Part shown: piece by piece, positions 3,537 to 21,324 of the stretch | How positions within the stretch are numbered: the first letter of the stretch is position 1 | Layout of the letters: every line of letters begins with the position of its first letter | From: a virus | Direction: 5' to 3' (one strand) | DNA length: 23,340 nucleotides | IMG/VR virus record: IMGVR_UViG_3300007539_000234 | Span: 1 to 23,340 of that record | The notes under the pieces: model-generated | Databases searched by the model: none | Seen by the model: only the letters and a program-made list of their open reading frames with translations | Told to the model about the DNA's origin: nothing | Translations under genes and position numbers: made by a program

Positions 3537-3836
<300 letters not shown>

Positions 3837-3882: not shown

Positions 3883-4851
3883 TTAATATAACTCTCCTGC
3901 TTTGATCCTATCGGCAATCAAACTATTTAAGTCCGCAGCCCTGTGCTTCGACTCACCGTCCATTGAGTACCAGCCCTTTGCGGGAGACGTAACCTGTCCT
4001 TTCTTGTACGCATAGGTGGTCAGTCCATAGTCTTTCTCCAGACCCTTATTGTAGAGAAGCTTAAACTCGCAGTCTTGATACGGTACAGTAACCTTATTCT
4101 TTACACATTTGATATTGCCTTTGATACCCTGAGGGTTTTTTACATCATCGTACAGAACGTCGCTCTTGTTTGAAGACGTTTCAATGGACACGCCACAGTA
4201 ATACAGAAGCGCCTTTCCCCCACCTGCCTTTGTGCGAGGATCACCGAACATAACACCTACCTTGCTTCTTACCTGATTGATAATTAGAAGCGCAGCCTTC
4301 TCCTTGCGTAGAAGAGGGTTGATGCGCCGAAGACACTGACCCGCGACCTTGGCGCGAAGGGCTCCTGCCATCTCAGAGTTCTTACCGAAATCGTCATCCA
4401 TCTCCTTTCGCGTAGGAGACACTCCGATGGAATCGTAGCCAATGATGATGGGAGTATCCTTGTCCTTCTCTCGAATAGCTCGAATGGCATTCTCGATAGC
4501 CAGGAAGCAGTCCTCCATCGACTCAGGCATCAGATAGATAAGTTTCTCTGGATCAACTCCCAGCACCTTTGCAAAGGCTGGGGAGTATGCATGCTCGTTA
4601 TCGATCATTACCGTGTAGTACCCTTTCTGCTGTGCGCCTACAAAGGCGTGCGTGAGGAATACGGTCTTTGCAGTGCTACTCTCCCCGAAGATCTCTGTGA
4701 TAGACCCAATAGGGTAGCCGCCGTCATAGCGGCCAGATAGCACTTTATTTAACGCAAACGAGCCTGAGTCTACGAAACCATGAATTTGATCTTCTTCAGA
4801 AAGAAGTGCGGCTCCGTCCAGGCGTTTGCAGATATCATCTAGAAAGCTCAT
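3883..4851 (-). CDS. recA: RecA/UvsX-family recombinase (322 aa)
   Basis: Strand-exchange ATPase that coats ssDNA and pairs it with homologous duplex. It would act with the gp32-like SSB and the gp46/gp47 nucleases of this module in recombination-dependent replication and repair. Visible: the Walker A region GESSTAKT (56-63), IDNEHAYSP (83-91, like the IDAEHALDP segment of RecA), Walker B IIIGYDS (135-141), and the L2 region NQVRSKVGVMFGDPRTKAGG (192-211). The last Gly of the canonical GxxxxGK[ST] loop is Ala (A61); T4 UvsX also departs here. The C-terminal domain is short, giving 322 residues against about 350 for bacterial RecA. It is more RecA-like than UvsX-like in L2. It starts 7 nt after the stop of the GT/methyltransferase gene, with CTATAACA 4 nt before the ATG and no Shine-Dalgarno sequence. 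Confidence 0.92.
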   Translation of the reverse strand: MSFLDDICKRLDGAALLSEEDQIHGFVDSGSFALNKVLSGRYDGGYPIGSITEIFGESSTAKTVFLTHAFVGAQQKGYYTVMIDNEHAYSPAFAKVLGVDPEKLIYLMPESMEDCFLAIENAIRAIREKDKDTPIIIGYDSIGVSPTRKEMDDDFGKNSEMAGALRAKVAGQCLRRINPLLRKEKAALLIINQVRSKVGVMFGDPRTKAGGGKALLYYCGVSIETSSNKSDVLYDDVKNPQGIKGNIKCVKNKVTVPYQDCEFKLLYNKGLEKDYGLTTYAYKKGQVTSPAKGWYSMDGESKHRAADLNSLIADRIKAGELY

Positions 4852-4855
4852 AGTT

Positions 4856-4863
4856 TGTTATAG
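4856..4863 (-). promoter_or_regulatory. CTATAACA octamer before recA
   Basis: Minus-strand CTATAACA, then AACT and the recA ATG at 4851. The TAA stop of the upstream glycosyltransferase/methyltransferase gene lies inside the octamer, so stop codon and signal are merged. Confidence 0.4.
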
Positions 4864-6741
4864 AGATTTTTTCTTGAAAACATACCACGAAGGGTACGGT
4901 AATTCATCAATAACTACAAGCTCTAGGTTTTTATCAGCTACAAACTGATTAACATATTTGTAGGTCAAAGGGAAGTGTTCTTGGCTGTAATCATGCCCTC
5001 CAAAGAAACCTCCCACCTTTACTTTAGAATACCAGTCGTAAATAGTCTCCCCTTGATCTTGGCCTGTGTGAGCATACCCATCAATATAAACAAAATCTAA
5101 CGACTCATCCTCAAACCTAGCCAAAGCATCCTTAAACGTCGATCTAAGCACAACGCTTCTGTCCTTGTAAGGCGCTAGTAAGTCCATAGTATGCTCATAC
5201 TCCGATAGATCATGCCCTCTTGCTTCATCATTCCAAGCATCAATAGAGTATAGGCGAGAGCATGTCGAATTACTTAAAATATGCTTTGAGAAATAACCTT
5301 TCCAGACACCCAACTCTGCGCCTTCTCCGGTTAAACCTTTCTTATTCAACATAAAAGGAATCTCATTTCGATTCTCTAGAACATCAAATGCCCGTGGTTT
5401 CTTCTTGCACAAAAGCATGACTGTTCTTTCCCACGGATTTCTAGATTGGCCTTGAGATAATCCACCCAAAGACTTGCTTAAGTCCCTTACAATCTCACAA
5501 CTATCTGAGATAATGGTCCTAAGCTCTTTTTCGTCATCTATACCAATATGATATTTGTGAGGAGTACAATCAGTTCCTAGCAAAAATAACCCATCATCTT
5601 TTAGATACGAGATACAGTTTTTTACAGCAGCCCTCCAATCATACCCGTGGTCAAGAGCGTTCCAACTCATAACAAAATCACACTTACCTACAAGCTGGCT
5701 GATTTTACTCTCGGCAGGGACCGAGTATTTCCTTTCTCTAGGAATGGCATCCCATTGAGGTTTTCTGCGATCTATGCGTTCGTAATCTGCGAGCAGAGGA
5801 TCAGCATAATACTGAGGACCACTATTAAAATATAGAAGCGCGGGTCGTGAGCCACAACCAACATCTAACAGTCTACCGTGCGGGAACTTATCACGACTCA
5901 AATCAAAGGAGTTAAAGATATGAGACCACTGTCGATCCCACTCCTCGTCATTGTCTCTCATGTTTCCGCCCTGATGATACTTTAGTTCGAACGGTTGATT
6001 TTCCTGATCCCACTCCCTGCGCTTTGAGGCTACACTATAATTATAAAACTTCGAATCAGGGTTTACGTCTACAATAATTCCTGCATCTACAAAAGGTTTT
6101 AGAATAGAATACTCTACTAAAGGGTGGTGCAAAGTGCCAATAGTCTGACCGTCCGCTTTGTAGTGATGCTCCGCCGTAGTTATTCTATCTGGGTCGATGT
6201 CCCACCAATCAAACCCATAAATATGTACTTTCTTATATTTCTTCAAGTACATGAAAATCATCAGCAGTCCCGTAGAGGGTGCGTAGTTTTCCCAAGACCT
6301 TCCTTCTTTAATATTCGGAACATCATAATTACCTAAAGGTAAAAATGTTTCCATTACATTTTGACGACCTTTCTTATCGGACACTGCTAAAGGAAACTTA
6401 TCTAAACACTCTTGAGGAGGCTCGTCATCATCCATAATCCATGAATGATATAAAACGGACTCCCAAGGCGCGTCGGTAATTTGCTTTTTATGGTATAGGT
6501 TAGGAGTGGCTAACACATAATGACCATACCGCAACCCCAAATCATGATGATCGTCCACAACATCCACATCATTAAACCGAACGATAACGTTAAAGGAATC
6601 AATGAATCTACCCAGATTCTTACCGCGAGGGCTTGGACCGTTACCTACTAAAATAACAGAATCATCAGAAAGGTTACACCCTTCTCTAAACTTCGAAAGA
6701 ACGTCAAGAGCGTTCTCATGCTGGTTGTTCTTGTTTGGCAT
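4858..6741 (-). CDS. Three-domain GT29-like glycosyltransferase / methyltransferase / methyltransferase fusion (627 aa)
   Basis: I start it at ATG 6741 (MPNKNNQHEN), overlapping the GT4 gene by 26 nt. A TTG at 6777 is in frame but lies deeper inside that gene. Residues 28-235 resemble GT29 (sialyltransferase-type) domains: LVGNGPSPRGKNLG...VIVRFNDV (31-58), PSTGLLMIFMYL (155-166) and IYGFDWW (174-180). Residues about 288-420 are a class I SAM methyltransferase (LLDVGCGSRP 291-300; SWNALDHG 359-366; LKDDGLFLLGTD 380-391). Residues about 470-625 form a second SAM methyltransferase of the Methyltransf_24 type (AELGVWKGYFS 475-485; FVYIDGYAHTG 550-560; GGFFGGHDY 577-585). Sugar donor and target are unknown. 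With the neighbouring GT4 gene it forms a glycan-type cassette between ssb and recA, and it looks AT-richer than its neighbours. Confidence 0.8.
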   Translation of the reverse strand: MPNKNNQHENALDVLSKFREGCNLSDDSVILVGNGPSPRGKNLGRFIDSFNVIVRFNDVDVVDDHHDLGLRYGHYVLATPNLYHKKQITDAPWESVLYHSWIMDDDEPPQECLDKFPLAVSDKKGRQNVMETFLPLGNYDVPNIKEGRSWENYAPSTGLLMIFMYLKKYKKVHIYGFDWWDIDPDRITTAEHHYKADGQTIGTLHHPLVEYSILKPFVDAGIIVDVNPDSKFYNYSVASKRREWDQENQPFELKYHQGGNMRDNDEEWDRQWSHIFNSFDLSRDKFPHGRLLDVGCGSRPALLYFNSGPQYYADPLLADYERIDRRKPQWDAIPRERKYSVPAESKISQLVGKCDFVMSWNALDHGYDWRAAVKNCISYLKDDGLFLLGTDCTPHKYHIGIDDEKELRTIISDSCEIVRDLSKSLGGLSQGQSRNPWERTVMLLCKKKPRAFDVLENRNEIPFMLNKKGLTGEGAELGVWKGYFSKHILSNSTCSRLYSIDAWNDEARGHDLSEYEHTMDLLAPYKDRSVVLRSTFKDALARFEDESLDFVYIDGYAHTGQDQGETIYDWYSKVKVGGFFGGHDYSQEHFPLTYKYVNQFVADKNLELVVIDELPYPSWYVFKKKSL

Positions 6742-7936
6742 TTGTTTTGGCTTGAAGAATTTCTCGATAAAGATCAATACGACCTTTCACGTTCCTGTTG
6801 ATATCGAACGTCTTGTCTGTAAGCTCTTTCAGGTTCCGACCCATCTCCTCACGGTGCTTCCGATCCTTGATTACCTTTGTGAGTCGGGATACCCATTCGC
6901 TCTTCGGATTGTTGCGATCGATTAGATATCCCGTAACGCCATTGATGATAGTTTCATCGTAGCAGCCGCAGTTAGTAGCAATCAAAGGAACTCCATACCG
7001 TCCACACTCAGCAACCTTGATCTCGGACTTGGAGTCGTTGAAGTTGTTGAACTGAAGAGGTGCGATAGCGACATCAATGTTTGTGTACATCTTACCGTAA
7101 TCGTCTGCGGGTAAGGCTGGATACACGGTGTAGTTGCGGTGCCTAATACCTCCAGAGAGGTATCTTTCGTAGTTATCCCATACGCTTTGCTGCCAATCAG
7201 GGTTAGGTTTACCATCCTTCATAGGCATTACAGGTCTTCCGTACCACCCCCACCTAACGTTCTCAGGACCCACCTTAGAGTTGACGCTCATGGAAACCCC
7301 TTGGAACTCCTTTACATCTTCTTCGTGGTGAATACCTCCTACCCATCCAACGCGACAGGTTTTCCCTCCTCTGAGAGGGGGTACTTTCTGTAAGTTCCAG
7401 GCGGGAAGGTTGTAGTCGATAGAGTTTTTGATAATTACCAAAGCTCTACCCACATAAGGAGCGATACGATCTGCAAACCGCTTCTGCGTAACCGACACCA
7501 TGTCCACAAACGTGTAGATGTGTTTTGCAACGTTGCTTAGATTACCTTCACTATACACTTTGAACAGACGGTGACCTTCGTACAGGTCTGTTAGAAGATC
7601 GTCATTATCATAGTGAGTCAGTTTGCCCATCTCTGCGGCACGCTGCAAAAGCTTTACAGTGTACTCACCTCCAAAGTTATGGATATTCTGCGTCCACACT
7701 ACGTCTGCCCACTCAAGATTTTCTTCCGTGTGGTCCTTCAGCAGAACTCCAGGCTTCTTCTGCCTCATCATCTCCTCTTTATCCCACCCCAGGGGATTGA
7801 GATCGAGACGCACCTCAACTTCATCCGAGTGCAGTTCCTGCAATTTATTAGCAGGGAGGATGATGCGATAGTACGCACACCCTCCCTCATTTGCAGGACA
7901 AGCCAGGATCTTCAGCTTGTCTTTGCCTTTAGCCAT
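6716..7936 (-). CDS. GT4-type (GT-B fold) glycosyltransferase (406 aa)
   Basis: Predicted retaining glycosyltransferase using an activated sugar. Visible: the N-terminal segment KILACPANEGGCAYYRI (9-25), HYDNDDLLTDLY (108-119), typical of phage and O-antigen GT4 enzymes, and the linker NSIDYNLPAW (171-180). The second Rossmann start is RVGWVGG (195-201). The donor-binding motif is SEIKVAECGRYGVPLIAT (304-321), with the paired Glu residues of the E-x7-E type region, followed by NGVTGYLID (332-340). ATG 7936 shares one base with the SSB stop (TGATG), so it is translationally coupled to ssb. The 3' end overlaps the GT29-like fusion by 26 nt. The acceptor could be a host surface glycan, a virion protein or DNA. 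Being co-transcribed with replication proteins makes an intracellular early or middle function plausible, but that is inference. Confidence 0.85.
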   Translation of the reverse strand: MAKGKDKLKILACPANEGGCAYYRIILPANKLQELHSDEVEVRLDLNPLGWDKEEMMRQKKPGVLLKDHTEENLEWADVVWTQNIHNFGGEYTVKLLQRAAEMGKLTHYDNDDLLTDLYEGHRLFKVYSEGNLSNVAKHIYTFVDMVSVTQKRFADRIAPYVGRALVIIKNSIDYNLPAWNLQKVPPLRGGKTCRVGWVGGIHHEEDVKEFQGVSMSVNSKVGPENVRWGWYGRPVMPMKDGKPNPDWQQSVWDNYERYLSGGIRHRNYTVYPALPADDYGKMYTNIDVAIAPLQFNNFNDSKSEIKVAECGRYGVPLIATNCGCYDETIINGVTGYLIDRNNPKSEWVSRLTKVIKDRKHREEMGRNLKELTDKTFDINRNVKGRIDLYREILQAKTNAKQEQPA

Positions 7937-8697
7937 CAGTCAGCTTTGAGATTCTTTAGGTGTGCGATGTAGTCGTCATCACCTTCATCAGAAGTTACTT
8001 CTGCGGAAACATTGCCAGTGGGGCGTCCAAGAACGAGACTCTCCATCTCCATAGCCAGCTTCTTAAGATCTTCATACTCAGGAAGCTTGACGAGCCCGTG
8101 AATATCATGAAGCTCATCCATCCATTCCGCTACCTCTTTGGAGGACCCTGCCTCAGTCTGCTTAGGCTTAGGAGCGGACTTGTCGTAGTTAGGCCACTGC
8201 CCCTGAGTATCTTTAACGATCTTGAAATCCCAACCTTCATCGAGGTTTGTGATGTCCCCGTAATCTTCATCAAAGAAACAATCTAGGATCTTTCCGAAAA
8301 GCTTCATACCCATAGAGAGAATCTTTACGCTACCGTCACGACGGTCAACTACGTTCATGTAGTAACGTTTGCGCGGCTTAATCTGTCTGGCGAGGTCTTG
8401 AGCTTCATCGGCCATCGGACCTTCAATCTTCCAAAGCTTGTAGTACAGGTCGCAGACAGGGCAGTCATGACCCTTCACTCGCGGACAGTGATAATTCTTA
8501 TCATTGATCCTGTGAATAGCTGTCTCGGCATAGAAGTCGTTATCACCCGTATCTCCCTTGCCGGGAAGTACGCGGATGACGGAGGTGCCCTCCTCCATCA
8601 TAAAGAACTTCTTAAGAAAGTCGTCGTTGTTGCCGCCGCCTCCTTGAGCACGTTGGATAGATTCGTATTTTTTTCTTAGTTCGTCGAGGTTTACCAT
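7936..8697 (-). CDS. gp32-like single-stranded DNA-binding protein (253 aa)
   Basis: Cooperative ssDNA-binding protein of the replication fork, the partner of recombinase, helicase and polymerase. ATG at 8697 (MVNLDELRKKY): a basic helical N-terminus (the cooperativity region in T4 gp32), then a core with FFMMEEGTSVIRVLP (31-45). The zinc ligands are H62 or H70, C71, C79 and C82 (CPVC), matching the gp32 His/Cys3 site. The core continues with RYYMNVVDRRDG. The C-tail is acidic (EVTSDEGDDDY), as in gp32, where it binds other replication proteins. Length is somewhat below the 301 residues of T4 gp32. The leader carries a perfect 7-bp hairpin just after a CTATTATA octamer, and no Shine-Dalgarno sequence is visible. 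This layout recalls the structured leader through which T4 gp32 represses its own mRNA. Confidence 0.87.
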   Translation of the reverse strand: MVNLDELRKKYESIQRAQGGGGNNDDFLKKFFMMEEGTSVIRVLPGKGDTGDNDFYAETAIHRINDKNYHCPRVKGHDCPVCDLYYKLWKIEGPMADEAQDLARQIKPRKRYYMNVVDRRDGSVKILSMGMKLFGKILDCFFDEDYGDITNLDEGWDFKIVKDTQGQWPNYDKSAPKPKQTEAGSSKEVAEWMDELHDIHGLVKLPEYEDLKKLAMEMESLVLGRPTGNVSAEVTSDEGDDDYIAHLKNLKAD

Positions 8698-9198: not shown

Positions 9199-9535
9199 CG
9201 TTAATTATAAAAGAAAATAGTTCCTGATTAAGTGACGCTAAAAGAACAAACATATTAGAAATCACTGTCGTCAGATACTCATTAGTAACTTGTGAGGGTA
9301 TCTCATCATCATCTCCTAACCCAAACAAGTCTAGCCCCACATGAGTAATCTCATGCAGAAGCGTAGACTTGTAATCTTCAATACTTTGGCTAGGATCGAT
9401 TATAATTTCATTTCTTTGAAACTCTACACATCCATAGAGGTTATCTTTTGATAAAGATTTTTGTAGTATTTTAAAGGTTTTGTTTCCAACGTTTAGTTCA
9501 AGAGGATGTTCCGGCAGGTTATGCTTGCGCGTCAT
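9191..9535 (-). CDS. Small HExxH putative zinc metallopeptidase (114 aa)
   Basis: ATG at 9535 (MTRKHNLPEHPLEL). The sequence STLLHEITHVGLDLFGLG carries HEITH (H61, E62, H65), the zinc-binding and catalytic motif of gluzincin-like peptidases. NEY about 20 residues later offers E86 as a third ligand. The upstream part (VEFQRNEIIIDPSQSIED) resembles the strand before the active helix in small ImmA/IrrE or SprT-like domains. At 114 aa it would be a minimal domain. It overlaps the helicase gene by 17 nt and the UvsY-like gene by 8 nt, so all three are coupled. The target is unknown, for example a host regulator or a phage precursor protein. There is no signal peptide, so it should act in the cytoplasm. 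Confidence 0.55.
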   Translation of the reverse strand: MTRKHNLPEHPLELNVGNKTFKILQKSLSKDNLYGCVEFQRNEIIIDPSQSIEDYKSTLLHEITHVGLDLFGLGDDDEIPSQVTNEYLTTVISNMFVLLASLNQELFSFIINDE

Positions 9536-10817
9536 TTGTATTAGACTGGCTTACGACCAGTCGAGAGTAATCAATCCCGATAGGTACAATGAATCGGGCG
9601 CGTCCGTTACGAGACTTCATAAGATATAGCCTAGCACTGCCTTGATCGAATTCTTGTTCAGTCTGATTAATGGAAAATACTAGATCGCACACACGAATCT
9701 TACCGTAGGAATCCGCTAGCTCAGAGTCTGTAATAACTGCAACCTTCTTACCTTCACGATTAGTCTGAGTTGCTGTCCAAATAAGAGACTCATACTCTGA
9801 AGCAATACCTCGAAGCTCCTGAGCCAGACGCTCTTGGCTTTGGTACTCTGCCATGTCATTCTCAGTCTTCATGAGTTCCAAGTAATCCACGATGATAACG
9901 TCTGGGCAGAAGTCCTGATAGTTTTTAAGCTGGTTCAGGAACGCTCTCAGCCCCGTAATCGTAAGTCGCTTCGTAGGGAACTCCTTTACGATGAGCTTGC
10001 CGTGCTGTGCCCACTGCTTAGAGATCGTGTCCAGTCGTTTCTCAATATCATCAACTCGCCTGTTAAGGTCCCTCTGCTGAATGCGCGTGAAGATGCTGTC
10101 CAGGCGTTGTGCCACACGATCCTCTGCCATCTCTAGCGAGATGTAAAGTACATTGTGACCATCCAGCACCGAACGAGCGGCTTGGTTAGCAAGGAACAGA
10201 GACTTGCCAACACCCGGAGGTGCAACTACCATCGCCATTTCCTTGTGCGCTAGACCTCCCTCCAGCGCCTCGTTAAGGGTCTCGAACGGAGTACGGAACT
10301 TCGGTACGATAGAGGCGCTGTTGAGACGATCCCAACGTGCCTTTACTCCCGAGAAGTAGTCAGTACCTAGGTCTACGTTACGGTTAATAGAGAACGCATT
10401 GCGAACCTCATCTTCGATAGCCCCGAAGTTTTTCTTCTTAAGGTGGTCTACAGATTTAAGGATAGCATCCTTTACCGCTTGCTCCTTAGCGAACTCTTCG
10501 ACAAGATCAAGATAGTAATCATGATTATCGATGGACCGCTCGTCAAGCTGGTTAATCGCAGTCACCTCATCCCTATAATCACCGAACGAATCAGTAGGGG
10601 TTAGGTGCTTCTTGGCTTCTTCGAGAAGCTGATCGTCCGTAGGGAGCTTCTTGTACTGTAGATAAAAATCCACAAGCACAGAGTACAGCCTTTGGTGGGA
10701 CGGGAACTCGAAGTAGTCTGCCTGAATCATCGGCATCACCTGAAGAAGAAAAGACTCCTCAGACTTCGCCAGATACAGAATACCTCGCTGGATTGATTCT
10801 TGGAATTGGTAAGCCAC
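9519..10817 (-). CDS. DnaB/gp41-family replicative helicase (432 aa)
   Basis: Hexameric 5'-3' replicative helicase. Start is GTG at 10817, reading (M)AYQFQESIQ; no ATG gives a better start. The N-terminal domain (about 1-100) has the DnaB-N pattern (LLQVMPMIQADYFEFPSHQ). The RecA-like motor holds FETLNEALEGGLAHKE (178-193), Walker A APPGVGKS (199-206), SLEM (227-230), Walker B DVIIVDYLELM (306-316), a QTNR-type segment (TQTNREGK), ADSYGKI and the C-terminal arginine-finger region (KSRNGR). This is the usual order of the family. Length and domains are complete. CTATAATA lies 4 nt before the GTG, and its last bases plus GGG may double as a weak ribosome site. No primase is visible in the window. 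Confidence 0.93.
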   Translation of the reverse strand: MAYQFQESIQRGILYLAKSEESFLLQVMPMIQADYFEFPSHQRLYSVLVDFYLQYKKLPTDDQLLEEAKKHLTPTDSFGDYRDEVTAINQLDERSIDNHDYYLDLVEEFAKEQAVKDAILKSVDHLKKKNFGAIEDEVRNAFSINRNVDLGTDYFSGVKARWDRLNSASIVPKFRTPFETLNEALEGGLAHKEMAMVVAPPGVGKSLFLANQAARSVLDGHNVLYISLEMAEDRVAQRLDSIFTRIQQRDLNRRVDDIEKRLDTISKQWAQHGKLIVKEFPTKRLTITGLRAFLNQLKNYQDFCPDVIIVDYLELMKTENDMAEYQSQERLAQELRGIASEYESLIWTATQTNREGKKVAVITDSELADSYGKIRVCDLVFSINQTEQEFDQGSARLYLMKSRNGRARFIVPIGIDYSRLVVSQSNTNDAQA

Positions 10818-10821
10818 GCCC

Positions 10822-10829
10822 TATTATAG
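10822..10829 (-). promoter_or_regulatory. CTATAATA octamer before the helicase
   Basis: Minus-strand CTATAATA, then GGGC and the GTG at 10817. The dUTPase TAA stop lies within it. The surrounding 9-mer is near-palindromic, so a CTATTATA also reads on the plus strand. Confidence 0.4.
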
Positions 10830-11737: not shown

Positions 11738-13347
11738 GGCTTTCTCACAGTTGTGATGTAGTCCTTCTTCCGAACCTCTAGTACATCAGCTTTATCTTCT
11801 ATTAAAGACGTAAGATAATCATTGTGGGTAATTATAAACAATCTTTTTGATTGGGTAATTTGCTGAATAAGCTCATACAAACCTCGGATGCCCTCCTCGT
11901 CCAGCGAGTCAGCGATCTCATCAAAGAAAACTACGTTAGATCTTTCTTTTCCGGTGAGCAGCAGCAGGTCGTTAAGAGCCAGCATGACCGACAACGAGAT
12001 CTTCTTCTTCTCGCCTCCTGATAAGGTATCGAAGAAAGCTAGCTTGGATCTGTTGAGGATAGTTTCGTGCAGGGAATCGTCGAAGTCAATAGAGAAGTTT
12101 CCCCCTGTAAGGAATCCTAGATAGTAATTCGAACGCTCGTTAAAGAACGATAGGATGTTACGAATCACATACTTGACGAGACCTTGCTCGGAGAATGCTG
12201 TCTCCCAGAATCTCATTAGATCGTAACCCTTGGACGCCGTACTCATCTCAGATAAACGAGATTCGCATAACGTGCGTTGATCTTTTACATGATCTTCTAC
12301 AACAAGTAACTCTGCTTCGAAAGATTTGACTTTTTCAATAAGATCGAAATCCTGTAGAGAGAACGGCACTCTGGTAGAGTCTAGTTCTTTGTCCAGGGCT
12401 TTGACTTGTTTCTGAAAGACTTCGATATCTATGCCGAGATTCTTGATAGTCTCCTTGTCCTCTTGGATAATTTTATACGAGTGGTCCGACACCTTGCCAC
12501 AATGCTCGCACACCGCACTCTTTAACTTGTCTACCCTAGACTGAGCGTTGCGAACATCCCTCTTTAGCTCCGAGACTCTTTGCATCTTCTGAGTCTGCTC
12601 CAACTCTAGCTCATGGTACTTCCTCTCCATCTCTTGGATCTCGGACATGGAGTGCTTACGAAGAAAAGACGCCTTCTCTGAACTTAAGAGGGCGTTAGCG
12701 TTCTTGCACATTTTAACTAACTCAGCCCGTCTTGCTTTTAAACTAGACAGCTTGTCGTTAGCCTCGTCTAGCAAGGTGCTGCATACTTTTTTATTGTTGT
12801 TGTGCAGCGATTTGAGAGCTTTGATCTTAGCCCTGTTATTGAATAGCTCAGACACTGAAAGGAAGTTTTGAATAATCGTTCGCTTCTCTTCAGGAGAGGC
12901 TGTAAGAAAGTTAGTCGCATTGCCTTGGCCGAATATAATCGACGCAAGGAACACTGACTGGTTTGTGTTCAGGAAAGACTCCAGGAACTTCTGGGTGTTG
13001 TTGATGCTATCCTTGGTACACTTCTCGCCGTCTACCGTAACGGTCAGCATAGGGGGCTTCTTTACCCTTTCGATAACAACGTTATCGTTCACTACCAGCG
13101 TAACCTTGCACTTCCCTTCCGAGTGCAGGTTGCGAATGCTTTTTTCCGTAGTCTTGCGTATCGTTTTTCCAAAAAGAGCGAACGCAATAGCCTCTATGAT
13201 TGTACTCTTGCCCGCACCATTAGATGAGTTAGGTTTAGTATCTTCATTCACCCCCACGACCTGTACAAGCTGAGAGAAGTCTTCAAAATCAATTTCTGCT
13301 TTTTCAATAGACAGGAAGTTTTCTATTTCGATACGATTAATTTTCAT
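11734..13347 (-). CDS. gp46/SbcC/Rad50-like recombination ATPase (537 aa)
   Basis: SMC-type ATPase subunit of the DNA-end-processing nuclease, partner of the gp47-like protein encoded just upstream. Visible: the N-terminal Walker A SSNGAGKST (41-49), a Q-loop region FGQGNATNFL (139-148) and coiled coil from about 175. The zinc hook is CEHC (C280, C283) at the apex, with the returning coil to about 365. Then come the ABC signature LSGGEKKK (442-449), Walker B VVFFDE (472-477) and an H-loop histidine in FIITHND (504-510). The coils are short, as in T4 gp46 (560 aa), so the molecule is complete. The start overlaps the gp47-like gene by 11 nt, and the stop overlaps the zinc-ribbon start. Acts in the cytoplasm on double-strand ends to make 3' tails for RecA. 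Confidence 0.93.
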   Translation of the reverse strand: MKINRIEIENFLSIEKAEIDFEDFSQLVQVVGVNEDTKPNSSNGAGKSTIIEAIAFALFGKTIRKTTEKSIRNLHSEGKCKVTLVVNDNVVIERVKKPPMLTVTVDGEKCTKDSINNTQKFLESFLNTNQSVFLASIIFGQGNATNFLTASPEEKRTIIQNFLSVSELFNNRAKIKALKSLHNNNKKVCSTLLDEANDKLSSLKARRAELVKMCKNANALLSSEKASFLRKHSMSEIQEMERKYHELELEQTQKMQRVSELKRDVRNAQSRVDKLKSAVCEHCGKVSDHSYKIIQEDKETIKNLGIDIEVFQKQVKALDKELDSTRVPFSLQDFDLIEKVKSFEAELLVVEDHVKDQRTLCESRLSEMSTASKGYDLMRFWETAFSEQGLVKYVIRNILSFFNERSNYYLGFLTGGNFSIDFDDSLHETILNRSKLAFFDTLSGGEKKKISLSVMLALNDLLLLTGKERSNVVFFDEIADSLDEEGIRGLYELIQQITQSKRLFIITHNDYLTSLIEDKADVLEVRKKDYITTVRKP

Positions 13348-14353
13348 GAGTCTTTATCTCTTCGAGGGCTTGTAACAGTTCGGGCTTAGAGAAGATACTG
13401 TTAGAATTGTCTATGTACTCCTCTACAACTTTATCATCAATAGTTAGCAACGTGTCGTAATCAACATGAGATGCTTCGTACTTAGGAAGGACATCCTCAA
13501 AGACAACTTCCAGATGTTTAACTTTGTGCTTCTGCAATAGAACCTTCACCAGTTCTTTCTCAGAGCACTCGTCAAGAACATCCATCTTCACACGTAAAAT
13601 AGTGTAGAACGCATCGAAGTTATACTTCTTAGCATCCCTGTCCAAATGTTCCAAGGTCGTAGTTACGTGCCTGATGCCGTGGTTAATAGCCTTTCGGTTT
13701 ACCTCTATGGTTCCCTGGCGAATAATTAACTCATGCACGTACTTCTGTGCGTTGGCCTCTCCAAACGAAGTGGAGTATTGAGTGCCCAGAACAAAGATAG
13801 ATTTATCGTAGATCTTTGGTTTGTGGATGTGGCCTAGGAAAGCCATACGTCCACCACCCTTAAGATGCCTCTTCTTTACGAACGACTCATACCTAAACGA
13901 ACCGTTTGCAGCACAGCCATCAAATCCGAAGTGACCGAATACATGGTTCGTGCTACGTTGCAAATGCTCTACAAGAATGCTCTCATCCTCATAATGAGGA
14001 ATGAAATCAAAATCCTCTCCGCCTATTCGAATCGTTTCAGTCTCCGTAACGACTTTCGCGATATCAGAGAACAGAGACAAGGTTGTTTCCGTACTACCAT
14101 CCTTGGCAATGGTATCGTGATTGCCTCTGTTAATGTAAATGTTCTTTGTGTGCAGCCCCTCAAGAAACTTTCTGAATGCCAGAAGCTCCGCTCCCTTAGG
14201 GTTACGCCTGTGAAAAACATCTCCATTAATGACTACGGAGTCGGGAGGTTTCCTGTTTACCAGCTTTGTTAGCGTAGCTACTTGTTGATCCAAGTAACCG
14301 GGCAGGTAATCTGATCTAAGATGTAGATCAGTTAAAATTACAATTCTGTGCAT
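13337..14353 (-). CDS. gp47/SbcD/Mre11-like nuclease (338 aa)
   Basis: Metallophosphoesterase nuclease subunit that pairs with the gp46-like ATPase. I start at ATG 14353 (MHRIVILTDLHLR), because the metal-binding motif begins at once. An ATG at 14383 adds ten residues inside the polymerase gene. Metal-binding motifs in order: DLH (9-11), GDVFHRR (44-50), NRGNHD (75-80), FGHFG (139-143) and GHIHKP (174-179). These are all expected Mn2+ ligands. The C-terminal about 100 residues hold the likely partner-binding region. It overlaps the polymerase end by 26 nt and the gp46 start by 11 nt, so the three are coupled. Full length for the family (T4 gp47, 339 aa). Confidence 0.93.
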   Translation of the reverse strand: MHRIVILTDLHLRSDYLPGYLDQQVATLTKLVNRKPPDSVVINGDVFHRRNPKGAELLAFRKFLEGLHTKNIYINRGNHDTIAKDGSTETTLSLFSDIAKVVTETETIRIGGEDFDFIPHYEDESILVEHLQRSTNHVFGHFGFDGCAANGSFRYESFVKKRHLKGGGRMAFLGHIHKPKIYDKSIFVLGTQYSTSFGEANAQKYVHELIIRQGTIEVNRKAINHGIRHVTTTLEHLDRDAKKYNFDAFYTILRVKMDVLDECSEKELVKVLLQKHKVKHLEVVFEDVLPKYEASHVDYDTLLTIDDKVVEEYIDNSNSIFSKPELLQALEEIKTHEN

Positions 14354-15878
14354 CTTCGATGAATGATTGAATTTCTTGGGCATTAAGGAGCTTTCCTTTT
14401 TCAGAGAACTGAGCCTCAGTCAAGTGCCCAAAGGAAGTCCCTACCTCTACATCAACTTCAAAAGGTACTACAAAATCTATACCGTACGCAGGTAACAGAT
14501 CATCGGTCATTGTAAGGACCACCTTTAAAAGGGTTGCTACTTTCTCTATATCTTTAGGATCGCACTGAACCTCAACGGAGTCATGTACGGTGGCTAGAAT
14601 ATCAAAGTCTAAGCCTGTGAGATCACGATATCTGTGAAGTCTCTTGATTGAATGCAGCATCAAGTCGGAGGCAGAGCTTTGGATCACGAAGTTCATACCT
14701 TGGCGAAGGGCGCGGTACTGATACTTCTTGAGGGGGCTCTTAATATTAGGTAGGTGCCTACGACGACCAAAAAGACTAACTGCATACCCATTTTGTCGGA
14801 TCATCTTATGAACCTGATTAATCCACTTGAATACTTTCGGAAAGGACTGCTCGTAAGCTGCGAAGATACCTTTGCAGTAACTGATGCTCTTTCCGATTTG
14901 CTGCGCTAGTTTGTTGGGACCTCCCCCGTACACGATAAGGAAGCTAACAGACTTTGCGATCTGCCTTTCCTCCTTCGTAACCTTTTCAGGCTCCTTGCCG
15001 AAGACGAGAGAGGCGGTATACCTGTGAAGGTCCTGGCCCGTGTTAAAGGCTTCGATAAGGTTTGCGTCTTTGCAGCACTGAGCAAGAACGCGAAGCTCTG
15101 CCTGAGAGAAGTCTGCCGCGAGGAATGCTCGGTCACCGTCAGCACGCATAAGTTTCCGAATATTGATTGTATCGGAATCGGACTCGCGCGGCAAGGTATG
15201 GAAGGACACTCCCTTCTTCTTCTTGCCAGCCGAGTATGTGCTACAAGACAGACGGCCAGTAACAACTGTCGCGAAGTTGTACTGGGAGTAAATGCGACCG
15301 TCCTCATTATACTCTAGAGCAGCTTGAACTCCTTTCACATATGTTTTGTGCTGCTTGGCGCGGTACTTGTATTTGAGAAGAGTCTCGATGAAGTTAATAG
15401 CGTCTTGGTTGTCAGTGTCTTCTTTCACCGAGGTGAGGTGCTCTTCACTGATCTGGGGCATCTGCGTCTTCTCGGAAAAAGACGTAGGACGCAAATCGAA
15501 ACCATCGGAAGTAAACAGCACGGACGCCATTTCTATTGTCGAGTTCGGGTTCACCTCACCATGCCCTTTAGGTACAAGGGATTGAAGCTTTTCACCCAAA
15601 GCCTTTAGCTCTTTCTGTAGCTCCTGGTCGAGAACCTCAAGGTAATCAAAATCAACTTGAATACCGAGGTTCTCGACCATGCCAAGAATAACCTGAATGT
15701 CCTTGAGGAGGTTGTTATAAACATGATGCACATGCTTCTCCTCCATCTCCCTTTTCAGTAAGTGGTATGCACGCAACGTGAAGTCGCAGTCCATAGCGTT
15801 ACCAAAAGCAAGATCGTCCAAGGGCATCGTAGCCCAGAAATCATCGGACTTTTTTTTGTTCTTGTTTACTGTAAGCAT
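14328..15878 (-). CDS. Family A DNA polymerase, C-terminal piece: Exo III motif plus polymerase domain (516 aa)
   Basis: Replicative polymerase palm, fingers and thumb. Residues 20-36 (LDDLAFGNAMDCDFTLR) match the Exo III segment of PolI-type 3'-5' exonucleases, so the protein begins inside the exonuclease domain. Exo I and Exo II lie in the gene at 16571-17545, with thyX between. The position of Exo III Tyr497 (E. coli numbering) is Gly here; Asp501 is kept (D30). Polymerase motifs: TGRLS (207-211), motif A DFSQAELR (256-263), finger helix RQIAKSVSFLIVYGG (305-319), with Phe at the position of E. coli Phe762, and motif C VHDSVE (431-436). A TAG stop sits in frame directly before the ATG at 15878, so no longer product is made. 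CTATAATA lies 7 nt upstream. There is no 5'-3' exonuclease domain. Confidence 0.95.
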   Translation of the reverse strand: MLTVNKNKKKSDDFWATMPLDDLAFGNAMDCDFTLRAYHLLKREMEEKHVHHVYNNLLKDIQVILGMVENLGIQVDFDYLEVLDQELQKELKALGEKLQSLVPKGHGEVNPNSTIEMASVLFTSDGFDLRPTSFSEKTQMPQISEEHLTSVKEDTDNQDAINFIETLLKYKYRAKQHKTYVKGVQAALEYNEDGRIYSQYNFATVVTGRLSCSTYSAGKKKKGVSFHTLPRESDSDTINIRKLMRADGDRAFLAADFSQAELRVLAQCCKDANLIEAFNTGQDLHRYTASLVFGKEPEKVTKEERQIAKSVSFLIVYGGGPNKLAQQIGKSISYCKGIFAAYEQSFPKVFKWINQVHKMIRQNGYAVSLFGRRRHLPNIKSPLKKYQYRALRQGMNFVIQSSASDLMLHSIKRLHRYRDLTGLDFDILATVHDSVEVQCDPKDIEKVATLLKVVLTMTDDLLPAYGIDFVVPFEVDVEVGTSFGHLTEAQFSEKGKLLNAQEIQSFIEDAQNCNFN

Positions 15879-15885
15879 CTAAGCT

Positions 15886-15893
15886 TATTATAG
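15886..15893 (-). promoter_or_regulatory. CTATAATA octamer before the polymerase gene
   Basis: Minus-strand CTATAATA fills the 15-nt gap between the thyX stop (15896-15894) and the polymerase ATG at 15878. Spacing to the ATG is 7 nt rather than 4. It could give the polymerase piece its own transcription or start signal. Confidence 0.4.
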
Positions 15894-16571
15894 TCACCGC
15901 CCCATAAGAGCATCGAACGAGTGAGGGAAAACGACACGGGCAAGCTCAGAGACAGCTTTAGCGTACTCACGAATCTCATACTGAGCGTGTTCGTGATCTC
16001 TTAGCTTACAGAAGTGAGCTACAGCGTGCAAAGAAGCCGTCCAGTAGTATTCTGTGTACGTGTTGAAAGGAAGCACCATACGAGCTTGCTCTTTAGCAAC
16101 ACCCGCTTCGAGAAGATCCTTGTAGGTTTTAAAGGACATCGCTGTTCGTGCTAGCACAGCGCCCGAATACTTATCAAGCTTCGAGGTTTCTGAACTCGCT
16201 TGCTTCGAGTCTGTGCTCTGCATCCTTAAAGTTTTCGGAGTGTAGAACTCTGGGGTGTACTCTACATAGCGTCCTGAAATCTCGTTCCATCCGTGAGAGA
16301 TACTATCACCTACCGAGAAGTTGCACCCTACGATATGCTTATACCATTGCCTTGCGACAAACTCTGGGCACTTTACATGAAACGTAATCATGGCGTGTCT
16401 AAAGGGAGACGTATGATCGTTCTTAGCAAGGTAATTAATTAGCTTCTTATCCTTATCATTCAGGATAGTTGAACGACCTCCATAGCTAACACGCGCAGAG
16501 TTTACTGTGGTAAGGTCAGATCCCATATGATCCACAACCTCCACAAAACCGATATCATCTAATACTTTCAT
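15894..16571 (-). CDS. thyX: ThyX flavin-dependent thymidylate synthase (225 aa)
   Basis: Makes dTMP from dUMP using methylene-tetrahydrofolate and FAD/NAD(P)H. With the dUTPase it forms a dUTP-to-dTMP route. Visible: NSARVSYGG (24-32), LAKNDHTSPFRHAMITFHV (48-66), RQWYKHIVG (74-82) and WNEISGRYVEYTPEFY (95-110), the ThyX fold core. The classic RHR-x7-S signature is divergent: KHI replaces RHR, and about a dozen residues (CNFSVGDSISHG) lie before NEISGRY. The C-terminal part has ARMVLPFNTYTEYYWTAS and HFCKLRDHEHAQYEIREYA, as usual. ATG 16571 shares one base with the stop of the exonuclease gene (TAATG). It sits exactly between the two halves of the split DNA polymerase. Confidence 0.93.
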   Translation of the reverse strand: MKVLDDIGFVEVVDHMGSDLTTVNSARVSYGGRSTILNDKDKKLINYLAKNDHTSPFRHAMITFHVKCPEFVARQWYKHIVGCNFSVGDSISHGWNEISGRYVEYTPEFYTPKTLRMQSTDSKQASSETSKLDKYSGAVLARTAMSFKTYKDLLEAGVAKEQARMVLPFNTYTEYYWTASLHAVAHFCKLRDHEHAQYEIREYAKAVSELARVVFPHSFDALMGR

Positions 16572-17545
16572 TAAAATTCTTCTAGCTCAGTAGGCCAGTA
16601 TTGTTTTACGATATCCATCAGGCCGTGCGGCTTGTTCTCATCGATCAGTGCGTGCATGACCTGGGTATCGTGAATATTATTAAAGGATTCAACTCCCCAG
16701 TTGCGTAGGAATTTAAGGTCGAATTTGCAATTATGAAAGACCTTCCCTACAGCAGGATCGCCCATAATCCCAGACACGCGAACCAGAATAGTAGCCAACT
16801 CGCGGTCTGAAAAGCTGGATTCTCTGTGATGGATCGGAATAACAAACGCACGTTTTTCTCCAGTGGCAAAGCCAATACTTGTAATCTTATCTTTCTTGTA
16901 ATCGAGCCCTGTGGTCTCGATATCGACCGAGACGACTTCCTTGGAGGATGCCTCGTCCAGGCAGTCCAAAGCCTCCTGTAGCTCCTTACAGAGCGTGTAC
17001 GAGGACTGTGCTAGCTTGTTCTTGTTTAGCACAAACTTATCGTAGGCAGTCTCAATGTCTTGTACGAACAGATCCCGTAGCTTGGGCTCTGAGTATAGGG
17101 AGAACGGATGGTATACAGGAACTACGGGAATACGAACCCCGTCGATATCAATCCAAAACTCCTTGCCCCTTTTGTTCGAGATGCCAGACATACGAAGAAG
17201 AACTTTCATCGCAAGATTGCCCAATACATAAATCAGCTTGGGGTTGATCTGCTTAAGCTTCTCCTCAAGAGGGGCTCGGTTACTCTGAATAATCTCAGTG
17301 GTAACGTCCTTCTCTGAAACGCCTAGCATGTTGATAGACGCAACAAACTGATAGTCTTCTGCGGGCAACTTTGTGTTACCTAAAAGCTTCATCAACACTT
17401 CATACTCATCATCCTTGAACGAGTAGATCTCGCCACGAACTCGCTGGCAGGAGTCGTGAAGGAATACAATAGGTTCAGAGCCTACCGATTCGTGATGAGT
17501 ATCTTCCTCATTTTCAAAACTTTTTAAGATTTCATCTATACTCAT
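16571..17545 (-). CDS. UDG-like domain fused to the N-terminal half of a PolI-type 3'-5' exonuclease (324 aa)
   Basis: N-terminal piece of the split family A replicase. Residues about 66-170 look like a family 4/5 uracil-DNA glycosylase fold: INPKLIYVLGNLAMKVLL (100-117), then IDIDGVRIPVVPVYHPFSL (132-150). The usual GEAPG-type motif is not seen, so this domain may bind without catalysis. Residues 204-314 are a DnaQ/PolI-type exonuclease: Exo I SVDIETTGLD (206-215; D208, E210), Exo II FHNCKFDLKFL (270-280; D276), then DTQVMHALIDENKPHGLMD. It ends at WPTELEEF, just before where Exo III should come. Exo III begins the next polymerase gene, after thyX. A fusion of UDG-like and PolA domains is, from memory, known in SPO1-type phages. 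ATG at 17545 is 15 bp from the divergent sigma-like gene. Confidence 0.87.
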   Translation of the reverse strand: MSIDEILKSFENEEDTHHESVGSEPIVFLHDSCQRVRGEIYSFKDDEYEVLMKLLGNTKLPAEDYQFVASINMLGVSEKDVTTEIIQSNRAPLEEKLKQINPKLIYVLGNLAMKVLLRMSGISNKRGKEFWIDIDGVRIPVVPVYHPFSLYSEPKLRDLFVQDIETAYDKFVLNKNKLAQSSYTLCKELQEALDCLDEASSKEVVSVDIETTGLDYKKDKITSIGFATGEKRAFVIPIHHRESSFSDRELATILVRVSGIMGDPAVGKVFHNCKFDLKFLRNWGVESFNNIHDTQVMHALIDENKPHGLMDIVKQYWPTELEEF

Positions 17546-17548
17546 AAG

Positions 17549-17556
17549 CTATAACA
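17549..17556 (+). promoter_or_regulatory. CTATAACA octamer before the sigma-like gene
   Basis: Plus-strand CTATAACA, then GTTT and the ATG at 17561. It lies in the 15-bp gap between two divergent start codons. It is the only exact copy oriented toward a plus-strand gene, which argues that it follows gene direction. Confidence 0.4.
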
Positions 17557-18578: not shown

Positions 18579-19085
18579 ATGTCGAACCTAAGAAAAATCT
18601 TAAACGACGGGGAATTTGGCGAAAAGCCAAGGGTTAATAGTAAGAAAAAAGGCGCTACCTTTGAGCGGAAAATAGCTCACATGCTAAACGAACGGTTTAA
18701 TACCAAAGAGTTTAGCCGAACGCCTGGGTCGGGAGCTTTTGGGTCAACCCATCAACTCCCACAACATCTTATAGTCCACGGCGATCTAATTACACCCGAA
18801 AATTTTAAGTATACTATCGAATGTAAGAACGGATATAATCTGGAGATTGACGATCTGTTCAAGGAACGCAGCGACTTTTATAAGTTCATTGAACAAGCTA
18901 AGAATGATGCTAGAAAAGCAAGAAGAGCTTGGATGGTAATCTACAAGAAGAATAGAAGAAAAGAGATAGTAATAGTAGAAGAACGTATACAGGGTCTAAA
19001 TGATTGTATCTGTATTCATGAAAAATACTATGCTTATCTTCTAAAAGATGTGCTTACACTACCGAACTCTTATTGGTTCATATAG
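18579..19085 (+). CDS. PDDEXK-type nuclease, possible Holliday-junction resolvase (168 aa)
   Basis: Visible: KKKGATFERKIAHMLNERF (22-40) with the early-helix Glu E29, FSRTPGSGAFG (45-55), VHGDLITP (66-73) with D69, and YTIECKNGYNLEI (78-90) with E81-x-K83. This E...D...ExK layout plus the conserved PGSG loop is that of small restriction-like nucleases related to archaeal-type and phage Holliday-junction resolvases. The C-terminal part is basic (KNDARKARRAWMVIYKKN). Full length for such enzymes. It would cleave recombination intermediates before packaging, a late role. Upstream is CATATAAT directly against the ATG. Its 3' end overlaps the convergent 748-aa gene by 8 nt, with no terminator between. 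Confidence 0.7.
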   Translation: MSNLRKILNDGEFGEKPRVNSKKKGATFERKIAHMLNERFNTKEFSRTPGSGAFGSTHQLPQHLIVHGDLITPENFKYTIECKNGYNLEIDDLFKERSDFYKFIEQAKNDARKARRAWMVIYKKNRRKEIVIVEERIQGLNDCICIHEKYYAYLLKDVLTLPNSYWFI

Positions 19086-21324
19086 CGTAAGCTTTTAGAT
19101 ACTTCTCCTTGCCTGCGGGAGGAATACGGCCTTCCGCAAACTGCTTTCTCTCTTTGCCAGCAATTCTATTTCTAGCCAGGACTTCGCCTTCAGCGTTCTT
19201 CATAGAAACTCCGCTAACACCAATAGAGATTGTAGTCTCTGAAGAGAATGCGTCCTGTGCAATCTGTGAAAGCATGGAATGCGTCTGTGCTAGAGCAATC
19301 TCCGTGGGAGCACCTCTCATAATAACTTCGTTTTTAAAGGAGCCCATCGACAGAACAGAATCGTTTACAAGCGCCGCTGAACCATATTCGGGATCGGTTG
19401 CGGCGCGAGCTATACGGCTTAATTGAAATAGCTTTACTGCGGCTTTACGAGGATTCTTCTCGGTGCGAATAGATTTCTTTAGATCTTTAAGCTCTTTCTC
19501 ATAGGACCGTCTACCCTCAAGCGTCATAAACCCTACTTCCCCAGAGTTCTTTAAGAGGCTATCAATGTGAGTTCCTAGAGAAGCCTTGTTAGGTTCAGTT
19601 AGCGACCCTAGCTTATCTTCCAGCATGGAGAGAATTTTTCTATCATCCTCCACTGCTTTACGGCATTTATCTCCCTGCTCTTTAGAGATAAAGTTACCTT
19701 TAACAGCCCTGTCTATATGCTCTTCGTGAAGCTGGTCGAACTCGGACACTACCCCCTTACCGTAAGCGTTATGAATTGAGTTAGAGCCAAGCACAGTTTC
19801 TGAGATGGGACTGTCGTACATCTTCATCGAAACTTCTACGCTATACGTTCCGTCCTCATTATCATTCATCGCATCTTTGAACTCCTTGCTTAAAGGAGAA
19901 CCATTATCGATAATATAAGTATTGTCTGTTCTTTCGCCCAGCTTGCTGTCCGCTGAAGGACGATCAGATTTTATCACAGAGGAGATGCCGAGAATCTCAG
20001 CAAACTTCTCGGAAGCTTTGACCAGAGACGTAAGCTGCCTTTTTACCTCTGATTCAAAGCTCTCTACCGAACTAGTGAAGCTTTCAAGGTCATCTATCTC
20101 TCCAGAGAGCAGTGCTGCCTCAAGATTTTCAATGTCAGTACCTTGCACACTTGCGATCTTTTCTAGGCGAGTTTTTAGTTCTTTTAGTGCGAGCTTCTTC
20201 TGGCCCGCGTCCCCAGTTAAAAGAGCGCCTTGAAGCTGAAAAATGTCTTCTGCAAGTTTTCCTTTGGTGTCATTACCGCCGCTTCCCGTATTAATAGCTG
20301 TTGACTTTTGAGCCGCTAGGTCAAGTTTCTCGAACTCTTCTTTTGTAAGATTAGAAGGATCAACATTTTGAGGAAGAATACGTGCATCAAATAACCCACC
20401 ACCGTACTTGGACATAGAAGCTCCTAAAGAAAATCCATATGTCTTGTGGTCATATGCCCTAGAATACTCCTGAAGCTCCTTATAGGCGTCCGTAAACTCT
20501 CCGTCAGTACGACCGAAATAAACTCCTTTATCCCCCTGCTGACCGCGAACGGTTATAACTTGAGCCGCGATTTTATCCTCAGACGAAAGCTTTTCAGATC
20601 TAATAATCTTTACCTCAGCCCCGTCAGCTAGTCGTACCTTCTCAAGTTTTCCTGACATGGAAAAGAATCTAGAGGTCAGATCTAGTAACTGCGTTTGAAT
20701 AGCTGGGGATATATCGGGACGACCTTCGAAGAGTTTACCTAGCTTCGTTCTGGAAAGAGGCGTGATGATTGTGTTTTGAAGCTTGTCGATAAACGTCTCG
20801 ACCTCGAAAGAATCACCTTCTTCTCTTCCTTCTAAATAGCTTTTAATCTCATCACGTTCAGACGGCTGAAAACCCATCATGGATTCTTCGGGTGCAGCCT
20901 CAACTCCTGACGGGGTAGCCCCTTTGCCGTCTTCCTCGCTACCTAGCTCTTCCTGTGTCTTAGCAATAAGCATGTCCAGAGCTTGGATAATTGTAGGGAT
21001 AGTTTCAACCTTTGTGCTACGCGCTCCCGACTTGGACACAAAAGACACTCCTCGGTTGGTAGCCACTGCCTGTCCGTAAGAAGCTAAGGAAGATTTGACT
21101 TCTTCAGGACTAGCCGTACCTTGCTGCGTAGAAGCTTGTTGTAAATTTGTTTTTGCAGTCTGGTATTGAGTTATCTTAGTTTGAGGGTCAACCTGATCTC
21201 CAAGGCCCATTTCAGTAGCCCACCACTTCGCATCGGCAGCTTCTACGATCAGCGAAGGCTTCCAAGTTCTTTTTCGCATACCCGTATAGGATTCGAGTAG
21301 CTTATCAAACACGCTTTCAGACAT
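19078..21324 (-). CDS. Large unknown late protein, probably virion-associated (748 aa)
   Basis: ATG at 21324 (MSESVFDKLLESYTG). The protein is polar, mostly helical, and rich in Ser, Glu, Lys, Gln and Ala. It has a WKPSLIVEAADAKWWATEMG segment near the N-terminus, Gly/Ser linkers (INTGSGGNDTKGK) and a long helical middle. I saw no enzymatic motif, cysteine cluster, signal peptide or membrane helix. It follows the tail tube gene across an intrinsic terminator, in the place where T4 has the portal gene, but length and sequence do not look like a portal. Baseplate, inner-virion or tail-associated roles are open. Its only ribosome site (AGGAG, 13 nt before the ATG) lies in the 3' arm of the terminator hairpin. 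Confidence 0.75.
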   Translation of the reverse strand: MSESVFDKLLESYTGMRKRTWKPSLIVEAADAKWWATEMGLGDQVDPQTKITQYQTAKTNLQQASTQQGTASPEEVKSSLASYGQAVATNRGVSFVSKSGARSTKVETIPTIIQALDMLIAKTQEELGSEEDGKGATPSGVEAAPEESMMGFQPSERDEIKSYLEGREEGDSFEVETFIDKLQNTIITPLSRTKLGKLFEGRPDISPAIQTQLLDLTSRFFSMSGKLEKVRLADGAEVKIIRSEKLSSEDKIAAQVITVRGQQGDKGVYFGRTDGEFTDAYKELQEYSRAYDHKTYGFSLGASMSKYGGGLFDARILPQNVDPSNLTKEEFEKLDLAAQKSTAINTGSGGNDTKGKLAEDIFQLQGALLTGDAGQKKLALKELKTRLEKIASVQGTDIENLEAALLSGEIDDLESFTSSVESFESEVKRQLTSLVKASEKFAEILGISSVIKSDRPSADSKLGERTDNTYIIDNGSPLSKEFKDAMNDNEDGTYSVEVSMKMYDSPISETVLGSNSIHNAYGKGVVSEFDQLHEEHIDRAVKGNFISKEQGDKCRKAVEDDRKILSMLEDKLGSLTEPNKASLGTHIDSLLKNSGEVGFMTLEGRRSYEKELKDLKKSIRTEKNPRKAAVKLFQLSRIARAATDPEYGSAALVNDSVLSMGSFKNEVIMRGAPTEIALAQTHSMLSQIAQDAFSSETTISIGVSGVSMKNAEGEVLARNRIAGKERKQFAEGRIPPAGKEKYLKAYAI

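Follow-up and report, generated by a model that had tools for sequence, protein, structure and literature searches.

The window analysed here is the whole 23,340-nt stretch of viral DNA in IMG/VR record IMGVR_UViG_3300007539_000234. It carries a gene for a protein in which a GT29 (sialyltransferase-type) domain is followed by a class I methyltransferase domain of the MT23/MT11 type and then by another of the MT24 type (Table 1). The order of the genes around it is dnaB, two small genes, ssb, a GT4 glycosyltransferase gene, the fusion gene and recA. The frame of the fusion runs from an ATG at 6741 to a stop codon ending at 4858 (627 aa, or 639 aa if translation began at a TTG further upstream, at 6777). 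At the base composition of the gene the probability of 640 codons without a stop is about 3e-15, and GC3 is equal across the three domains (0.38-0.39), so that nothing points to a frameshift or seam. A frameshift artefact was ruled out on the basis of the open frame and this uniform GC3.

The locus had been picked out in a preliminary description made from the letters and open reading frames, whose coordinates were correct; the strand, which it did not give, is minus. Its two 60-nt counts (16 G+C at 6301-6360 and 29 at 7261-7320) were exact on recount, and the AT-richness that it had read from them holds for the gene as a whole (GC 0.411, GC3 0.385), as GC3 is 0.52-0.54 in GT4, ssb, recA and dnaB. 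In the scan of base composition and codon use that it had proposed for the window, the fusion proved the most atypical of the 29 genes scored, with the highest codon-usage deviation (chi2/df 3.18). The overlap with GT4 was real and amounts to 26 nt, and the domain combination, which had been called unusual, was found in no other contig. On the other hand, the gene had been placed between ssb and recA, which is right for the recA border but not for ssb, since GT4 intervenes and the true site is between GT4 and recA. The signs named in advance as speaking against the fusion did not appear: there is no trace of a frameshift, composition is not uniform and no relative carries the fusion at this site.

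Table 1. Positions of the features of the window, with the basis of each assignment.
Feature	Position	Strand	Basis
Fusion gene, 627 aa	4858..6741	minus	Open frame; three Pfam domains above cut-off; atypical codon use
GT29 domain, about residues 25-235	6037..6669	minus	Pfam PF00777; viral GT29 alignment; fold match
First methyltransferase domain, residues 282-395	5557..5898	minus	Pfam PF13489 1e-10, PF08241 1e-5; motif position
Second methyltransferase domain, residues 476-585	4987..5316	minus	Pfam PF13578; 55% identical stand-alone viral relative (L096)
GT4 glycosyltransferase gene, conserved, left border of the slot	6716..7936	minus	Pfam PF00534 1e-11; phrog_7162 glycosyltransferase 2e-30
recA/uvsX-like gene, right border of the slot	3883..4851	minus	Pfam PF00154 2e-44
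ssb (gp32-like), conserved, before GT4	7936..8697	minus	Pfam PF08804 2e-15; conserved order
CTATAACA box, 4 nt before recA ATG, overlapping the fusion stop	4856..4863	minus	Same box and spacing in relatives
Further CTATAAYA box	10822..10829	minus	Start codon 4 nt on
Further CTATAAYA box	17549..17556	plus	Start codon 4 nt on
dnaB	9519..10817		
tRNA-Asn gene, inside a small ORF	3614..3689	minus	
Split family A DNA polymerase	14328..17545	minus	
UDG-like and exonuclease half	16571..17545	minus	
Polymerase half	14328..15878	minus	
thyX	15894..16571		
748-aa protein	19078..21324	minus	

Most relatives also have a CTATAAYA box 4 nt ahead of recA, and boxes at this spacing precede other genes as well, including dnaB; in 22 related loci an ATG follows 54 boxes, 31 of them at exactly 4 nt. 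The box is a possible start signal of recA, and CTATAAYA might be a phage promoter whose transcripts have no leader or almost none.

Directly downstream of recA are a small gene and the tRNA-Asn gene, which is 89-92% identical to the tRNA-Asn of Streptomyces and Microcystis phages; apart from it, no DNA of the window matches GenBank phages at near identity. Elsewhere in the window, thyX stands between the two polymerase halves; the corresponding halves of the relative L074 (G029), which are 70% and 80% identical, flank a different, 161-aa gene. The 748-aa protein has no match in Pfam or PHROG and is just 32% identical in a relative whose neighbouring genes are 69-88% identical; it appears to be fast-evolving or to have been replaced.

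Domains of the fusion protein and their viral relatives

The N-terminal domain matches Pfam PF00777 at 3e-11 (43.6 bits, curated cut-off 23) and keeps the sialylmotifs L (VILVGNGPS...IDSFNVIVRFN, residues 29-57), S (PSTGL...VHIYGFDWW, residues 155-180) and VS (H205-H-P-L-V-E210, that is H205-x4-E210, including the catalytic His). HHYKA at residues 192-196 is a tentative candidate for motif III. In an alignment of 16 viral GT29s, the fusion and 15 others, residues G44, I47, D48, G69, G158, G176 and H205 are invariant. An AlphaFold2 model covering the domain (pLDDT 63.7) matched 30 PDB chains at E <= 0.001, so that the structure search suggested earlier for this domain gave confident matches solely to sialyltransferases, ST6GALNAC2 first; TM-scores were moderate (about 0.47), with long stretches badly modelled. 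A phmmer search of the fusion against PDB sequences found no match, hence no solved relative detectable by sequence, and NCBIfam gave none either. GT29 is already known from bacteria (PMC5811610), and the fusion shares with these CAZy GT29/PF00777 sialyltransferases the profile match, the motifs L, S and VS and the fold match, but differs from the bacterial branch in being phage-borne and fused to two methyltransferases.

Both methyltransferase domains keep their SAM-binding motifs. The first, a Methyltransf_23 domain above the curated cut-off, has LLDVGCG at residues 291-297; the second matches Methyltransf_24, a family of small-molecule and sugar methyltransferases, at 1e-11 (46.1 bits, cut-off 26.3; 3.9e-14 in another profile scan) and carries AELGVW, VYIDG and GGHDY. 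Neither motif IV of DNA amino-methyltransferases nor a cytosine-C5 (5mC) motif was found within the 627 aa, and no membrane segment was found in the protein, which is consistent with a cytoplasmic enzyme.

To place these domains among other viruses, IMG/VR was scanned with GT29 patterns, yielding 14 and then 22 loci in overlapping sets. The viral GT29 proteins that were translated are stand-alone, of about 180-290 aa, except for that of L072 (534 aa), which has a long unrelated N-terminal part, and none of them is fused to a methyltransferase. The closest to that of the window, also stand-alone, are 31% identical. A CMP-sugar cytidylyltransferase (PF02348) is present in 7 of the 14 GT29-bearing records and in 1 of 34 relatives of the window without GT29 (Fisher p 3e-4; the records are not phylogenetically independent), and NeuB in 4 of the 14. 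These 14 exclude the window, and L025 and L036, which are one virus (99.98% identical) and were rejected as two separate cases, are entered once. For viral GT29 as a whole, this co-occurrence favours a CMP-ulosonate as donor, although neither a CMP-sugar synthetase nor NeuB was found in the 23 kb of the window.

From motifs, fold and these associations, the GT29 domain is predicted to transfer a sugar, probably from a CMP-activated donor of the ulosonic type. It might instead use a donor or acceptor other than that of a sialyltransferase, and the protein make a small glycoside or modify a nucleotide sugar; the domain is only 17% identical to solved sialyltransferases and its acceptor-side loops are poorly modelled, as this alternative would allow, but the retention of motifs L, S and VS and the co-occurrence of viral GT29 with CMP-sugar synthetases make it very unlikely.

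The enzyme types of the fusion are found as separate, side-by-side genes in other viral lineages. In L060 three genes stand in succession, for GT29, MT24 and a GDP-mannose dehydratase-like protein, and L072 and L073 combine NeuB, CMP-sugar synthetase, GT29 and MT24. These genes are unfused, with about 20-31% identity to the window in GT29 and, for L072 and L073, 31-32% in MT24. The clusters of L072 (2766-9918) and L073 (2864-10058), with NeuB, CMP-sugar synthetase and GT29 genes and methyltransferases, look like a nonulosonic-acid pathway.

The nearest matches to the MT24 domain of the window are stand-alone viral genes 55% (L096) and 48% (L097) identical, and none of 80 loci with relatives of this domain holds a homologue of GT29 or MT23. 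As the closest relatives of the MT24 domain stand alone without GT29, the fusion was probably put together from separately mobile domains. For the same reason, the MT24 matches in L072 and L073, at first taken as strong proof of a GT29-MT24 partnership, were given less weight. No full-length homologue of the fusion was found in IMG/VR, GTDB genomes, GenBank phages or plasmids, and neither the GT29 nor the MT23 domain gave a close match as a single-sequence query. A GTDB scan with a three-sequence GT29 alignment returned no confirmed relative, which reflects the limit of the pattern method and does not imply absence from bacteria.

The GT4-recA interval in related viruses

With the RecA of the window as query, 55 loci were found in IMG/VR, and at more than 30 of these RecA is 70-93% identical. 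In relatives the GT4 adjoining the interval is 49-79% identical to that of the window. The genes ssb, GT4 and recA follow in this order at 13 distinct loci; at most other loci the fetched flank stops among sugar genes short of GT4. No related locus of this set has the triple fusion. The alignable DNA of L002 covers window positions 13041 to 6759 and, after a gap, 4863 to 3889, so that similarity stops 18 nt before the ATG of the fusion and returns at its stop codon, and the same pattern of breaks is seen with L035 (RecA 93%) and L003 (RecA 89%). The recent acquisition proposed in the preliminary description is thus borne out as an acquisition, both by these breaks and by the absence of the fusion from every relative, but not as regards its date: cargo G+C is lower than core G+C in 9 of 10 near relatives (L004 ties), and low G+C, common to the cargo of this interval, does not by itself date the arrival of the fusion.

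Nor is the fusion a lone insertion into a replication unit, as had been supposed, because the interval between GT4 and recA is a standing cargo slot filled nearly always with sugar genes. In the distant L037 and L039 it spans 0.6-0.7 kb and contains small ORFs only; near relatives have 1.2-4.2 kb between the two genes, and elsewhere the length reaches at least 7-8 kb. The commonest families among 94 slot proteins are GT2, GDP-mannose dehydratase, epimerases, DegT aminotransferases, several methyltransferase families, GT32-type and GT11, and the cargo of relatives includes entire nucleotide-sugar pathways, like O-antigen islands.

That cassettes are exchanged is seen directly in L006 and L008, of different metagenomes, whose near-identical backbones (identity 98.7% on the upstream side, 97.9% over recA and 99.2% beyond it) enclose a wholly different interval, with no DNA alignment between about L006:5045 and 7964. 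Both cargo states are real, since the L006 arrangement recurs in a third assembly (L007, 99.99%) and the cargo of L040 is homologous to that of L008 (63-73%). At L006:5049-5084, at the left edge of part of the cargo, a cargo gene opens with the leader of recA and its first codons over again (ATGAGCTTTTTAGACGA). The two copies agree at 28 of 36 positions, whereas 20 shuffles never exceeded 22, and the duplication looks like the trace of a recombination that inserted cargo at the start of recA; none of 17 other loci tested, the window included, has a comparable copy at its border. A second variable region lies right after recA, where L006 (8975-10972) and L008 (8975-10147) differ on the same near-identical backbones; at this place the window has just the small gene and tRNA-Asn.

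Fusions of a glycosyltransferase with a methyltransferase occur elsewhere in the slot. Seven near relatives have in common a GT2 head of about 200-300 residues with different tails: none assigned in L011 and L005, MT24 in L006, L008 and L040, an unassigned domain in L002, and Caps_synth plus a weak MT24 in L035. Over 308 bp of this head L002 and L035 share 86% DNA identity, a level at which their other cargo DNA does not align. The fusions of L006, L008, L040 and L035 thus resemble that of the window in slot, cargo role and the joining of a glycosyltransferase to an MT24-type domain in one protein, but they have a GT2 head instead of GT29 and lack MT23. Neither they nor the other GT2-headed proteins of the seven relatives have detectable homology to the GT29 fusion. 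The protein of the window represents the same kind of solution reached independently, outside the GT2-headed mosaic family.

The GT29-MT-MT architecture is known from a single contig, a partial genome, with no second copy in IMG/VR, and the sharp breaks at 6759 and 4863 together with the differing composition would also be expected if an assembler had joined a fusion gene from another genome to this operon. Against such a chimera, equally sharp breaks are present in the independently assembled L006 and L007, the joints obey the local rules (overlap with GT4, CTATAAYA box before recA) and cargo of this general kind is what the slot would be expected to hold, so we consider it extremely unlikely. 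Different content between conserved flanks was found both for L006 against L008 and for L002 against the window, and the fusion looks like cargo of an exchangeable glycan-tailoring slot and not like part of the replication machinery.

Predicted function and target of the fusion

We propose that the conserved GT4 enzyme starts or extends a glycan which the variable cargo then finishes, the fusion adding a GT29-type sugar and methylating the product within one polypeptide. One or both of its C-terminal methyltransferase domains would O-methylate the glycan. Translation of the fusion is probably coupled to that of GT4 through their overlap, and with its own start signal in the CTATAAYA box recA would permit cargo to be swapped without being disturbed. 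The glycan would most likely be a polysaccharide of the host surface, and its remodelling in the course of infection would keep competing phages from adsorbing (superinfection exclusion or a change of serotype). The catalytic activity, donor, O-methylation, target and time of expression given here are all predictions, and to the reading as a whole, a cassette-borne fusion for CMP-sugar-type transfer and glycan methylation, most likely at the host surface, we assign about half of our confidence.

The order of targets that we infer is host surface first, followed by virion proteins and DNA. The host surface is favoured by the O-antigen-like gene content of the relatives and by an argument made for another phage group, the pelagimyophages, whose hypervariable host recognition cluster has been argued to modify the host O-chain and avoid coinfection (PMC7029224). 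Like the slot, that cluster is a hypervariable island of phage genomes with many glycosyltransferase and sugar-nucleotide genes, but its site is between VrlC and gp14 of T4-like genomes that have tail fibres, whereas the lineage of the window has a family A polymerase, a slot between GT4 and recA, and cargo as small as one gene. Several observations count against the host-glycan reading: placement in a replication operon fits DNA modification as well, the closest relatives of the MT24 domain stand alone without GT29 nearby, the synthetase and NeuB are missing from the 23 kb, and there is one contig.

GT4 and the cargo could alternatively glycosylate and methylate capsid or tail proteins, variable cargo diversifying the glycans of the virion. 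A cytoplasmic enzyme without membrane segment could reach these proteins, and a conserved GT4 beside variable finishing enzymes suits one acceptor with variable caps; however, the slot lies among replication genes, outside the structural block, and the whole nucleotide-sugar pathways of the relatives resemble O-antigen islands, which leaves virion decoration rather unlikely. Less probable still is that GT4 and the cargo put methylated sugars on modified bases as protection from restriction. The neighbours ssb, recA and dnaB, the retention of GT4 in the lineage, with distant relatives in E. coli phages, and the DNA methyltransferase label of PHROG 2675 would fit this role, but the cargo looks like polysaccharide loci. 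DNA bases, included among the targets in the preliminary description, are the least supported of them, given that the fusion has no DNA-methyltransferase motif and that PF00303, the thymidylate-synthase family to which the base hydroxylase of known sugar-on-cytosine pathways belongs (PMC13390438), was found in none of 39 related records, all partial.

Returning to the host surface, a broader and more tentative proposal, which we consider less likely than not, is that this lineage of uncultivated tailed phages keeps a locus that builds one-gene polydomain glycan-finishing enzymes by domain shuffling, a head glycosyltransferase receiving exchangeable transferase or methyltransferase tails, and swaps them between near-identical genomes. 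Each would be a surface-type converter, that of the window adding a methyl-capped ulosonic-type sugar, a chemistry that we found described for no phage. Phage islands with glycosyltransferases are already known (PMC7029224); no paper on a phage GT29 or GT29-methyltransferase fusion was found in the open-access literature, which is weak evidence of absence.

Sugar-gene islands of phages being known, what the slot offers is a compact exchange unit with sharp borders. As near-identical genomes differ mainly in their cargo, the effect of the cargo on host, virion or DNA is testable. A by-product of the search is a group of viral GT29 genes with links to the synthesis of CMP-sugars. If the proposed reading is true, the fusion would let a phage control both GT29 chemistry and the methylation of glycans through a single polypeptide.
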